NCBI GenBank assembly: GCA_027306585.1 | Contig: DAHUZJ010000117.1 | Coordinates: forward strand, 1-64,000 | Direction: 5' to 3' | Length of the DNA stretch: 64,000 nucleotides | Source: Acidimicrobiaceae bacterium | Lineage (GTDB): Bacteria; Actinomycetota; Acidimicrobiia; Acidimicrobiales; RAAP-2 | Part shown: positions 32,124 to 37,786 of the stretch, piece after piece | Position numbering within the stretch: position 1 is the first letter of the stretch | How the letters are laid out: every line of letters begins with the position of its first letter | Made by a program: the position numbers and the translations under genes | The notes under the pieces: model-generated | The model's database searches: none | Seen by the model: the letters and a program-made list of their open reading frames with translations, nothing else | What the model was told of the DNA's origin: nothing

Positions 32124-32125
32124 CC

Positions 32126-32215
32126 GCGCCGCGCCGCGCCGTGCCGGGCCGGGCCGTGCCGTGCCGTGCCGTGCCGTGCCGTGCCGTGCCGTGCCGTGCC
32201 GTGCCGTGCCGTGCC
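32126..32215 (+). repeat. GTGCC pentanucleotide microsatellite
   Basis: Eighteen consecutive five-base units run from the end of the 86-residue gene; the last twelve (32156-32215) are perfect GTGCC and the first six are variants (GCGCC, GTGCC, GGGCC). It lies between convergent stop codons, so copy-number change would not shift any reading frame seen here. Confidence 0.95.
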
Positions 32216-32243
32216 GGCGGCACGCGGCCCGGCTCGCGCCCGG

Positions 32244-33301: not shown

Positions 33302-34555
33302 TCAGTCGAACCGCAGCAGGTGCTGGTCGCGGCGGCCCCGCCGCAGCACCACGTAGCGGTCGTGGAGCAGGTCACCGGCCGAAAGTGCCCGCTCGGGATC
33401 GTCGACCCGGCGGTTGTTCACGTAGGCCCCACCCTGGGCCTGCGTGCGGCGGGCGGCACCCCTGGACGGGGCGAGGCCCGTCCGCACCAGCGCGTCCACC
33501 ACCGTCAGCTCCTCGAGCTCCGACCGGGCGAGCACGGTGGAGGGAGCATCGGCCACGACGTCGAGCAACGTCCGCTCGTCGAGGGCAGCGATCTCCTCAC
33601 CGAAGAGGGCCCGCGCCGCGCGCTCGGCCCGGTCGGCCTCCTCGGCGCCGTGCACCAGGGCCGTGACCTCCCGGGCCAGGGCCCGGTGCGCCGCCCGCTG
33701 CTCGGGACGGGCCGCGGTCTCCCCGTCGAGGCGCTCGATCTCCTCGCGATCGAGGAAGGTGAGCTGCCGCAGGTACGCCCCCACGGCGTCGTCCTCCGCC
33801 CGCAGCAAGAACTGGTACAGCTGGTAGGGGCTGGTCATGGACGGGTCGAGCCACACCGCGCCCGCCTCGCTCTTCCCGAACTTCGTGCCGTCGGCCTTCG
33901 TGAGGAGCGGCGTGGTGAGGCCGTGGACGTGGTCGCCCGTCACCCGGCGTACGAGCTCGACGCCCATCGTGATGTTCCCCCACTGGTCGCTGCCGCCGAC
34001 CTGCAGATCGCACCCGTGCTCGGCGTGGAGCCGGAGGAAGTCGTAGGCCTGGAGCAGCATGTAGCTGAACTCGGTGTACGAGATCCCTTGCTCCAGCCGG
34101 CTCCGCACCGACTCCTTGGCGACCATCTGGCCGACCGTGAAGTGCTTGCCCACGTCCCGGAGGAAATCGAGGAGGCGGGCCGAGCCGAGCCAGGCGGCGT
34201 TGTCGAGGAGCAGGGCGTCGTCGAGGTCGAGGAACCGCTCCAGCTGCGAACGGATGCCTTCGAGGTTGGCCTTCAGCTCGTCGGTGCCGAGCAGCGCCCG
34301 CTCTCCGGTGCGCCCACCCGGGTCGCCCACCATCCCCGTCGCCCCCCCGGCCAGCGCGATGGGTCGGTGGCCGGCCAACTGGAACCGCCGCAGGGTGAGG
34401 AGCGGCAGGAGATGGCCCACGTGGAGGCTGGCGGCCGTCGGGTCGAACCCCGTGTAGACGGTCACCCGGGAGCGGTCGAGCAACGGCAGCGCGGCGTCAT
34501 CGGTCACCTGGTGCAGGAGGCCGCGCCAGCGAAGTTCCTCCGAGAACGTGGCCAC
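33302..34555 (-). CDS. tyrS: tyrosyl-tRNA synthetase
   Basis: TyrS charges tRNA-Tyr. The class-I HIGH motif is 'SLHVGHLLPL', the KMSKS motif is 'KFGKSEAG', and tyrosine-site residues lie in 'YTGFDPTA', 'YMLLQAYDF' and 'QVGGSDQWGNI'. A C-terminal S4 RNA-binding domain (about 350-417) is present. The GTG start gives 417 residues, normal for the bacterial enzyme; the longer open frame upstream lacks homology. Confidence 0.97.
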   Translation of the reverse strand: MATFSEELRWRGLLHQVTDDAALPLLDRSRVTVYTGFDPTAASLHVGHLLPLLTLRRFQLAGHRPIALAGGATGMVGDPGGRTGERALLGTDELKANLEGIRSQLERFLDLDDALLLDNAAWLGSARLLDFLRDVGKHFTVGQMVAKESVRSRLEQGISYTEFSYMLLQAYDFLRLHAEHGCDLQVGGSDQWGNITMGVELVRRVTGDHVHGLTTPLLTKADGTKFGKSEAGAVWLDPSMTSPYQLYQFLLRAEDDAVGAYLRQLTFLDREEIERLDGETAARPEQRAAHRALAREVTALVHGAEEADRAERAARALFGEEIAALDERTLLDVVADAPSTVLARSELEELTVVDALVRTGLAPSRGAARRTQAQGGAYVNNRRVDDPERALSAGDLLHDRYVVLRRGRRDQHLLRFD

Positions 34556-34705
34556 GGACCCAGCCTGCCATAGGCCCCGGGCCCGCAGCCGCCGGTCCGG
34601 CCACACCGCGAGGGTCTCCGCCCCCGGCCCTCCCCGACCGAGACCGCAGGCCGCCCGCCGCCCGGTTCCCCGGCGGAGTCCCCCGGACGCTCCTCGCTCG
34701 GGCCG

Positions 34706-34718: not shown

Positions 34719-35981
34719 GTGATCGAGCAGACCGTCGACGTTCCCCTGCCCACGGAGGGCGCGGTGCCCCCGGCGCTGGAGGGCCTCCTGGTGCGCAACG
34801 GCCCCACGGGCTACCTCGACGACGCCACCGGCCTCGACAGCGACGGGATGGTGCACGCCGTCGAGCTGCGTGGCGGGCTGGCGGCCGGGTACCGCAACCG
34901 GTGGGTCCGCACCCGCAAGCTGGCCGCGGTGGCCGGGACGCCGCCCCCCCGCGGGCCGGCGCAGCCCTTCGACGGGTCGGCCAACATCTCGGTCGTCTGG
35001 CACGCCGGCGCCCTCCTGGCCCTGGACGGGGTCGGCCTGCCCCACCGGCTCACGGCCCAGCTCGACACCGTCGGGATCGAGGACTTCGACGGCATGCTGA
35101 CCTCGCCCATCTCGGCCCACCCGCACCACGACCCCGAGACCGGCTCGCTCACGTGCACCGGTACCGACGTCTTCGGCCCGCCGTTCCTCCGGTACCACGA
35201 GCTCGACGCCGGCGGGGTCCTCGTGCACTCGACCGAGGTTCCCCTCGAGCAGGCCACCTACCAGCCGGGCGCCGCCGTGACCGCCACCCGGCTGGTCGTG
35301 CTGCAGCTCCCCCTTCCCTATGACGGCGCCGCGCCCTTCCCCTACCGGTGGGACGACGACGCCCCGACCCGGGTGGGGGTGCTCGACCGAGGCGCCGACG
35401 GTGCCGGCGTGCGGTGGGCCGACACGGAGCGGTGCGCCGTCCTCCACGTCGTGAACGCCTTCGACGACGGTGCGACCGTCGTCCTGGACGTCGTCCGGCA
35501 CGACGCCTGGGTGCCGGGCGACCCGCTCGGGGCGCCCGCCGTCCTCGAGCGATGGCGCTGCACGGGCCGCGCCGTCCAGCGGACCCCCCTCGACGACCTG
35601 GCGGTGGAGCTCCCCCGCGTCGACCCCGTGGTCGCCGGCCGCCCCTACCGCTTCGCCTACTGCGTGGGCACCGCCCGCGGCGACGACCCAGCGGGCGCCG
35701 GGCGCCCGCTCGTGCGCTACGACCTGGCCAGGGACGAGCGCGCGGTGTGGGACGCCGGGCCCGGTCGCTCGGCCAGCGAGCCCATCTTCGTCCGGGACCC
35801 CGACGGCCGCGCCGACGACGAGGGCTGGGTGCTGGCCTTCGTCGACGACGCCCCCGAGGGACGGACCGACCTCGTCGTCCTCGACGCCTCGTCCTTCGGA
35901 CGGCGGCCTCCCGACGCGGTCGTCCACCTCCCGCATGCCGTGCCGTCGACCATCCACGGCACCTGGGTCCCCGCCCACTGA
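34719..35981 (+). CDS. carotenoid-oxygenase family protein lacking one metal His
   Basis: Carotenoid cleavage oxygenases are seven-bladed propellers with a non-haem iron held by four histidines. The 420 residues follow the family in order: 'GLLVRNGP', 'DSDGMVHAVEL', 'SANISVVWHAGALLAL', 'SAHPHHDPETG' (His134), 'LHVVNAFDD' (His243) and the C-terminal 'IHGTWVP' (His413). The second ligand, normally in an 'HDFxxT' motif, is replaced: the matching place reads 'TYQPGAAVT' around residues 180-188. The enzyme may be inactive, use another ligand or have a changed reaction. No carotenoid synthesis gene is in the window. It is divergent from tyrS. Confidence 0.85.
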   Translation: MIEQTVDVPLPTEGAVPPALEGLLVRNGPTGYLDDATGLDSDGMVHAVELRGGLAAGYRNRWVRTRKLAAVAGTPPPRGPAQPFDGSANISVVWHAGALLALDGVGLPHRLTAQLDTVGIEDFDGMLTSPISAHPHHDPETGSLTCTGTDVFGPPFLRYHELDAGGVLVHSTEVPLEQATYQPGAAVTATRLVVLQLPLPYDGAAPFPYRWDDDAPTRVGVLDRGADGAGVRWADTERCAVLHVVNAFDDGATVVLDVVRHDAWVPGDPLGAPAVLERWRCTGRAVQRTPLDDLAVELPRVDPVVAGRPYRFAYCVGTARGDDPAGAGRPLVRYDLARDERAVWDAGPGRSASEPIFVRDPDGRADDEGWVLAFVDDAPEGRTDLVVLDASSFGRRPPDAVVHLPHAVPSTIHGTWVPAH

Positions 35982-36058: not shown

Positions 36059-37786
36059 TCAGTCCCCGTGCAGCGCCTCGCCGGCGGCGGCGGCCACCGC
36101 CCGGTGGACTCGGTCGTGCACGGCGACGTTGTCCGGCCGGCCCGGCATCCGCACCCGCACCACGTCGGCCCCGGCGGCGATGCCGGTGCCCACCTCCCCC
36201 AGGTCGGCGGTGTCCACCACCTCGGCCCCGAACCCCCTCGCCACGGCCGCCACGTCCGGCGCCATCGGCGTGCCGAACAGGAGCTCGAACCGCTCGCGGG
36301 ACAGCGCCGCCGCCTGGGGCAGGAAGTCGAAGATCCCCCCGCCGCCGTTGTCGGCCACCACGAGGGTGCAGCGGGCGCGGGCGCTCCCCGCCGGGCGCAC
36401 CAGGGACGACACGTCGTGCAGGAACGCCAGGTCCCCCAGCACCCCCACGACCGGCCCTTGCCCGGCCGCCGCGACCCCGAGGGCGGTGGCGCCGACACCG
36501 TCGATGCCGTTCGCCCCCCGGTTGGCCAGCACCCTCGGCGGGGCCGCGGTCGGCGGCGCGTACCACTCGAGATCCCGCACCGGCATCGAGGACGACGCCA
36601 CGACGGCAGTCCCGGCGGGCAGCAGCCCGTAGAGACGGCGCGCCAGGGCCGGCTCGCTCAGGCCTCCGGCCAGCGCGCCGTCGATCGCCTTCTGCGCCGC
36701 GCCCTCCACCGCCCGCCAGCGGCCGGCCCACCCGCCATCGGCTGGGCCACCGGAGGCGGCCTCGCCCCCCTCCGTGGCCGCGAGCGCCGCCGTCAGCCAC
36801 GCGTCGGGGTCCACCGGGTGGACCACCGACACGATCCGGTCGGGGTCGGCCCATCGCCACCACGGGTCCACGGCCACCACGTCGGCTCCCGCCGCCGCGG
36901 CCCGGGCGAGCCAGGCGGCGACCACTTTGGAGGCCCACGGGGCGCCGAGCAGCAGCACCGCCTCGGGCCGGAGCGCGTCGGCGACCGCCGCGTCGCGGAG
37001 CAGGGCGTCGGCCGCTCCGACCACCTGCGGTTCGAGCCGGCGGCACCCCGAACGAGGGTCCGCCAGGACGGGCCACCCCAGCCGGCCGGCGAGCGCCAGG
37101 ACGCGCTCGGGCCGCCCGGCGCCCGCGCCCGCCATCACCACCCCGGGGACTCGCTGCCAGCGGCGGACCGTGGCGGCCACGGCGGCGCCGTCGGCGTGGG
37201 GGCGTTCCGCCACCCGGGCGACCGGGCCCCGGGGGGGGAGCGCTCCCGCCTCGCCCACCAGGGGGTCTCGAAAGGCGAGGTTGAGATGGACCGGCCCGGG
37301 TCCGGCCGGGCCGTGCTGCGCTTCGGCGAGCGCCCGCCCGGCCAGCGGCCGCCACGTCGTGCCGGTCGCCGGATCGGGGACGCCGGGGTCCGCCGCCCAG
37401 CGGACCGCCAGCCCGAACAGCCCGACCTGGTCGACGGTCTGCGGAGCGCCGACCCCGTGCAGCTCGGGCGGTCGGTCGGCCGTGCACACGAGCAAGGGGA
37501 CCCGCCCGTGGTGCGCCTCCACCACCGCGGGATGGAGCTCGACGGACGCCGTCCCGCTCGTCGTGCAGACCACCGGCGGCCGGCCGGTGGCGAGCGCGAG
37601 CCCCACGGCGAAGAACCCGGCACCCCGCTCGTCGAGGCGCACGTGCAGGCGCAGCTCGGCTCGGGCCGCCAACGCCACCGCCAGCGGGGTCGAGCGGGAG
37701 CCCGGGCACACGACGGCGTCGGTCACCCCTCCCCGTACCCACTCGTCGACCAGGGTGGCAGCGAACGTGGCCTGGGTTACGCTCAC
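36059..37786 (-). CDS. menD: MenD, SEPHCHC synthase
   Basis: MenD joins isochorismate and 2-oxoglutarate with thiamine diphosphate, an early step to menaquinone. It has 'VVCPGSRSTPLAVAL', the catalytic Glu region 'LDERGAGFFAVGLALATG', 'TSGTASVELHPAVVEAHH', 'TADRPPELHGVGAPQTVDQ' and the cofactor motif 'GDLAFLHD...NGGGGIFDFLP' near residues 465-490. The 575 residues are full length. The GTG start is five bases from the start of the divergent menH-like gene. Confidence 0.96.
   Translation of the reverse strand: MSVTQATFAATLVDEWVRGGVTDAVVCPGSRSTPLAVALAARAELRLHVRLDERGAGFFAVGLALATGRPPVVCTTSGTASVELHPAVVEAHHGRVPLLVCTADRPPELHGVGAPQTVDQVGLFGLAVRWAADPGVPDPATGTTWRPLAGRALAEAQHGPAGPGPVHLNLAFRDPLVGEAGALPPRGPVARVAERPHADGAAVAATVRRWQRVPGVVMAGAGAGRPERVLALAGRLGWPVLADPRSGCRRLEPQVVGAADALLRDAAVADALRPEAVLLLGAPWASKVVAAWLARAAAAGADVVAVDPWWRWADPDRIVSVVHPVDPDAWLTAALAATEGGEAASGGPADGGWAGRWRAVEGAAQKAIDGALAGGLSEPALARRLYGLLPAGTAVVASSSMPVRDLEWYAPPTAAPPRVLANRGANGIDGVGATALGVAAAGQGPVVGVLGDLAFLHDVSSLVRPAGSARARCTLVVADNGGGGIFDFLPQAAALSRERFELLFGTPMAPDVAAVARGFGAEVVDTADLGEVGTGIAAGADVVRVRMPGRPDNVAVHDRVHRAVAAAAGEALHGD
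37778..37783 (+). promoter_or_regulatory. -10 element of leaderless menH-like gene
   Basis: TACGCT, eight nt before the GTG start, lies inside the first codons of the divergent menD gene. No comparable box is seen for menD on the minus strand. Confidence 0.45.

Follow-up and report, generated by a model that had tools for sequence, protein, structure and literature searches.

A carotenoid cleavage oxygenase homologue lacking one iron-ligand histidine and its glutamate partner at the tyrS-menD locus of an Acidimicrobiaceae bacterium

The gene described here lies on the plus strand between tyrS and menD, within the window, i.e., the whole stretch of 64,000 nucleotides that was analysed. It codes for a 420-amino acid protein (the query) with the fold of the carotenoid cleavage oxygenases (CCOs). 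The flanking genes were named from their translations, without a family search, and were taken as the borders of the slot by synteny. The CCO gene is divergent from tyrS and convergent with menD, which rules out an operon with menaquinone genes; the linkage is positional. The features of the locus, with the metal-site residues given by their query and Synechocystis ACO numbers, are as follows:

33302 to 34573, minus strand: tyrS (tyrosyl-tRNA synthetase), left border of the slot
34719 to 35981, plus strand: CCO-fold protein, 420 amino acids, GTG start (PF03055 match, AF2 model and Foldseek)
34986 to 34988, plus strand: Ile90, at the position occluding the sixth iron site (ACO T136), by alignment; Thr, Val and Ile are listed there (PMC12051055)
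35028 to 35030, plus strand: Gly104, at the second-shell Glu position (ACO E150, LSD4 Glu135; partner of ligand His2), by alignment; His-Glu pairing from PMC8191317
35118 to 35120, plus strand: His134, metal ligand 1 (ACO His183), His in 131 of 132 homologues
35265 to 35273, plus strand: lost ligand 2, where HDF has become P183-G184-A185 (CCG GGC GCC), aligned with ACO His238-Asp-Phe and with HDF of the orthologues
35445 to 35447, plus strand: His243, metal ligand 3 (ACO His304), His in 131 of 132 homologues
35607 to 35609, plus strand: Glu297, kept second-shell partner of ligand 3 (ACO E370)
35778 to 35780, plus strand: Glu354, kept second-shell partner of ligand 4 (ACO E426)
35955 to 35957, plus strand: His413, metal ligand 4 (ACO His484), His in 131 of 132 homologues
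36059 to 37786, minus strand: menD, right border of the slot

Elsewhere in the window, the pentamer CCGTG is repeated in 18.6 copies (96% matches) at 32124-32216, and 138-base tandem repeats are found at 357-1053 (5.1 copies) and 1778-2287 (3.7 copies). The consensus of the 138-base repeat suggests a YVTN-like beta-propeller repeat protein.

The query matched PF03055 over the full length of the family, from profile position 9 to 469 of 469, with an E-value of 1e-86 and a score of 292 bits (cut-off 27). With NF052295, the profile of the 8'-apo-carotenoid 13,14-cleaving dioxygenase, it scored 293 bits, below the curated cut-off of 675. The AF2 model (pLDDT 92.7, pTM 0.92) is a predicted seven-bladed beta-propeller, and the PDB matches listed by Foldseek were all CCOs, the closest being lignostilbene dioxygenases, VP14 and ACO. 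The 420-codon frame is intact, and its GC content by codon position equals that of the neighbour genes. The view of the initial annotation that the gene does not suffer general decay survives. No second CCO gene was found in the genome, a draft of 138 contigs that is 92% complete.

Members of the family bind a five-coordinate Fe(II) through four histidines, and substrate binding primes the site for O2 (PMC12051055). In LSD4 three of the ligands are hydrogen-bonded to second-shell glutamates (His218-Glu135, His284-Glu353 and His476-Glu418), and Thr121 blocks the sixth position opposite ligand 3, His284 (PMC8191317). LSD4 Glu135, Glu353, Glu418 and Thr121 correspond to ACO E150, E370, E426 and T136, and to positions 104, 297, 354 and 90 of the query, which carry Gly, Glu, Glu and Ile. 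Alignment to ACO and to the relatives confirmed the earlier assignment of His134, His243 and His413 as ligands 1, 3 and 4, and also the replacement of the second ligand in the segment TYQPGAAVT (residues 180-188). In the phmmer alignment Pro183 stands opposite His238 of Synechocystis ACO with no gap between motifs, and a comparison with ∼45 relatives revealed that ATMQHDFGVT has become ATYQPGAAVT without any indel. At least five base changes are needed to convert CAC GAC TTC into CCG GGC GCC, and the frame is kept. Tyr181 is specific to the query; slot members with four His carry M, L or W at this place, which is the position of ACO Phe236. The initial annotation had described a single His lost from an otherwise intact site, with all surrounding family motifs kept. 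His2 is indeed gone, but its Glu is gone too, so that a His-Glu pair is lost, and the near-invariant family residues G41, D184, R407 and G411 are changed as well. The query thus keeps five of the seven metal-site residues: the set of four His and the set of three second-shell Glu are both incomplete, and the occluding position is filled by one of the three residues expected there. His160 and His170, considered earlier as possible stand-ins for the lost ligand, were ruled out, since both lie in ordinary columns that also carry His in four-His relatives (32 of 35 and 10 of 35, respectively).

In CAO1 a water lies trans to the first His (PMC12051055). With the water placed in this way and the blocked position facing ligand 3, ligands 2 and 4 would form the trans pair. 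By analogy with these enzymes, removal of ligand 2 would then leave a facial set of three His.

To place these changes, 132 homologues from across the order were compared. Three of them lack His in the ligand-2 column. Position 104 is occupied by Glu in 120 sequences, Gly in 7, Gln in 3 and Leu in 1; all three His2 losses fall within the seven Glu-to-Gly proteins, and every one of the 120 with Glu retains His2. Counted without regard to descent, position 90 has no Thr in 7 of 7 slot members without the Glu, versus 5 of 30 with it. The protein of genome G061 (L008, positions 1501-2793) has Pro at ligand 2, and it is the only one of the 132 homologues with His at the occluding Thr position. This His2-to-Pro CCO is also found in the public record JAKADK010000099.1 (L034). 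The new His of G061 might represent a ligand swap.

Across the taxonomic family, a CCO gene occupies the slot between tyrS and menD in more than 27 genomes; among the order-level CCO loci examined elsewhere, none has the tyrS-menD neighbourhood. Searching for tyrS in genomes without a close CCO revealed further states of the slot. Its contents vary from a four-His protein, through a four-His protein without the Glu, a protein with His2 changed to Pro (the query and G061) and a His-free protein, to no gene at all. Intact His-free reading frames are present in genus g8 (G030, L163:2796-4286; G033, L175:2147-3526; G034, L189:2783-4162) and, in very divergent form, in genus g7 (G027, L164:2747-4003; G028, L165:2595-3920). 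The slot is empty, with menD adjoining tyrS, in g13, g20, g11, G029 and G031, and in g19 and g21 it holds a CcdA-like membrane protein, identified by eye (L190, L191, L195, L197 and L200). The His-free protein of G027 is still predicted to adopt the CCO fold (pTM 0.80), and the PDB matches listed for it were all CCOs. Read from sequence, the locus thus shows a graded series, from an intact enzyme to a His-free protein to a missing gene.

On a tree built with the trait columns removed, His2 was lost three times (in the query, in G061 and in the g8 clade) and the Glu five times. The query clusters with L094, L095 and L111 (support 95/92), and G061 clusters with L012 and L022 (92/95), which lack the Glu and retain His2. 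These separate places rule out a His2 loss shared by the query and G061 through descent. Two to three of four independent pairs agree with an association between His2 and the Glu; the independent events are few and the sign test is not significant. We then estimated dN/dS by the Nei-Gojobori method, with codon-aligned tyrS as a control; dS is 1-1.8, and the values are therefore rough. The ratio is 0.60 for the query versus 0.37 for four-His pairs, and the CCO/tyrS ratio of dN is 1.60 for the query, 1.23 for four-His pairs and 1.94 for the four-His protein of G002. By these measures of sequence change the query is faster-evolving than usual, and not pseudogene-like, although its nearest relative, at 55% identity, is too distant for a clean selection test on this branch. 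Among the His-free proteins, the G033/G034 pair has a dN/dS of 0.29 (95% interval 0.22-0.37) and the G027/G028 pair one of 0.23. Given their intact frames, their low dN/dS and the predicted fold of G027, the His-free proteins look like maintained pseudoenzymes rather than debris.

The genome of the query carries two adjacent PF00494 genes beside HpnE and squalene-hopene cyclase, in a hopanoid cluster. This set (L160, contig C114) consists of HpnC, a second PF00494 gene, HpnE, a polyprenyl synthase, squalene-hopene cyclase and ispH; one PF00494 gene is HpnC by its curated cut-off and was the only member scored singly. The PF00494 pairs of G061 and G059 match HpnC/HpnD better than CrtB, and PF00494 genes are absent from 18 of the 24 genomes sampled in the family. 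The PF00494 search found no phytoene synthase in the 92% complete genome of the query, and the ancestral substrate was probably not a home-made carotenoid; such a substrate is unsupported, as the PF00494 genes sit in the hopanoid cluster. A CCO in a bacterium without carotenoid genes is known from Mycobacterium tuberculosis (PMC5133782). A search for the rhodopsin family PF01036, made with retinal in mind, gave no matches, but neither did its control. Separately, five of the genomes sampled carry PF00494 genes as well as a slot CCO, and in four of these the CCO has lost its second-shell Glu.

Our preferred reading, which we hold with even confidence, is that the query still folds as a CCO but lacks the four-His site for cleavage; it would probably be a pseudo-oxygenase or a non-canonical one, in which three His remain as a facial site. 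The query is the syntenic orthologue of a four-His oxygenase of the carotenoid/stilbene type, and its own metal site has shed His2 along with the supporting Glu. The canonical reaction, i.e., alkene cleavage with O2 by Fe(II) held on four His, with one position water-bound and one occluded, would thereby have been lost. The protein would persist as a folded pseudo-oxygenase, most likely binding the hydrophobic ligand of its ancestor but not cleaving it in the canonical way, and His1, His3 and His4 may still hold a metal in the facial arrangement drawn by analogy above. A pseudo-enzyme, a binding protein and a three-His oxygenase had all been proposed at the outset. These options survive, and the comparison of proteins at the same slot makes a putative pseudo-oxygenase, or a metal protein of a non-canonical kind, more likely than an active oxygenase of the canonical type, because His2 was lost three times independently, His-free orthologues are maintained and the slot is empty in some genera. 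As the His-free proteins come from other genera, what their maintenance says about the query is no more than an analogy. It speaks against a pseudo-oxygenase that both proteins without His2 still carry five of the seven residues of the metal site, since a full pseudoenzyme could do without them. That the same five persist in two lineages which lost His2 independently speaks most strongly for the main alternative, which we consider somewhat unlikely: an active three-His enzyme in which a facial triad of His134, His243 and His413, together with Glu297 and Glu354, would bind Fe(II) or a different metal, leaving three sites open and catalysing altered oxygen chemistry. If constraint had ended with the loss of His2, the chance of keeping all five residues would be ∼0.13 and 0.20 in the two lineages, a rough estimate (branch lengths 0.75 and 0.38, dN/dS near 0.5 and 0.4, with the moment of loss placed at random along the branch) that is suggestive only. 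The change of HDF to PGA together with that of M to Y suggests that the loss is not recent, the set left after removal of His2 would be facial, and Ile90 is an allowed occluding residue. However, the helper Glu is lost as well, and in point-mutant work on mouse BCO1 and RPE65 mutation of the His reportedly led to loss of activity, so that each His would be needed. A broader version of this alternative appears to us rather unlikely. Here the query and G061 would each have evolved on its own into a three-His CCO with working metal chemistry, in G061 with a His put at the occluding position, and together with their His-free relatives they would make up one natural series dismantling the CCO iron site at a single slot.

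It could also be argued that the gene has lost its function and is drifting towards deletion. The empty slots of several genera (g13, g20, g11, G029 and G031), the raised dN/dS and deviations of the query at 8 of 69 family-invariant columns are in line with such a relic. We regard this as quite improbable, since the frame is intact with codon-position GC like that of its neighbours and the fold model is of high confidence; furthermore, L094, L095 and L111, which have four His, deviate at 18-20 of those columns. Replacement of the ligand by Tyr181, two residues before the lost His, would complete the site by other means, and both the restriction of this Tyr to the query and the Thr-to-His change of G061, which suggests that swaps are possible, speak for it. 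G061 has Leu at position 181, and we find a replacement by Tyr181 very doubtful. The chance of a sequencing or assembly error in the segment, a concern raised by the initial annotation and by the fragmented draft, is next to nil: at least five substitutions in three codons have left the frame intact and are accompanied by a Glu-to-Gly change 79 codons away, and the same kind of change is found in G061, where the public record JAKADK010000099.1 has it too.

Orthologues at one locus that lost the Glu, then His2, or the whole site, while apparently remaining folded, are natural variants. They allow tests of the role of the fourth His and of the passage from an iron oxygenase to a non-catalytic protein. 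A close comparison for the query is with the His-free slot proteins of g7 and g8, which have the locus and the CCO fold in common with it, and in g8 also the Gly at the E150 position; none of the four His remains in them, whereas three do in the query. Cysteine dioxygenase and Dke1 are three-His non-heme iron enzymes of cupin fold without homology to CCOs, and their likeness to the query lies in the possible three-His ligand set only. With the four-His CCOs (ACO, VP14/NCED and MtCCO; PF03055 and NF052295) the query shares full-length homology, a predicted propeller, ligands 1, 3 and 4 and the Glu partners of ligands 3 and 4; it differs in lacking ligand 2 and its Glu partner, and it scores below the NF052295 cut-off. 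The four-His site of the family has been called absolutely conserved (PMC6060882), and the conservation of the seven residues in the first and second shells has been called remarkable across all members characterised (PMC8191317). The lignostilbene dioxygenases LSD4, LsdA, PbLSD and NOV1 gave the best structural matches to the predicted model (TM 0.87-0.89), but their characterised members keep seven of seven metal-site residues (PMC8191317) and the query five. Our literature search on CCO pseudoenzymes found nothing direct. A precedent for an incomplete site comes from Phycomyces blakesleeanus, in which CCD-like genes are reported to lack expected histidines (PMC5133782); this is a fungal case, and the source does not say which residues are lost. 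CCO relatives without the expected His have thus already been mentioned in a fungus, and the larger finding here is the graded series at one locus.
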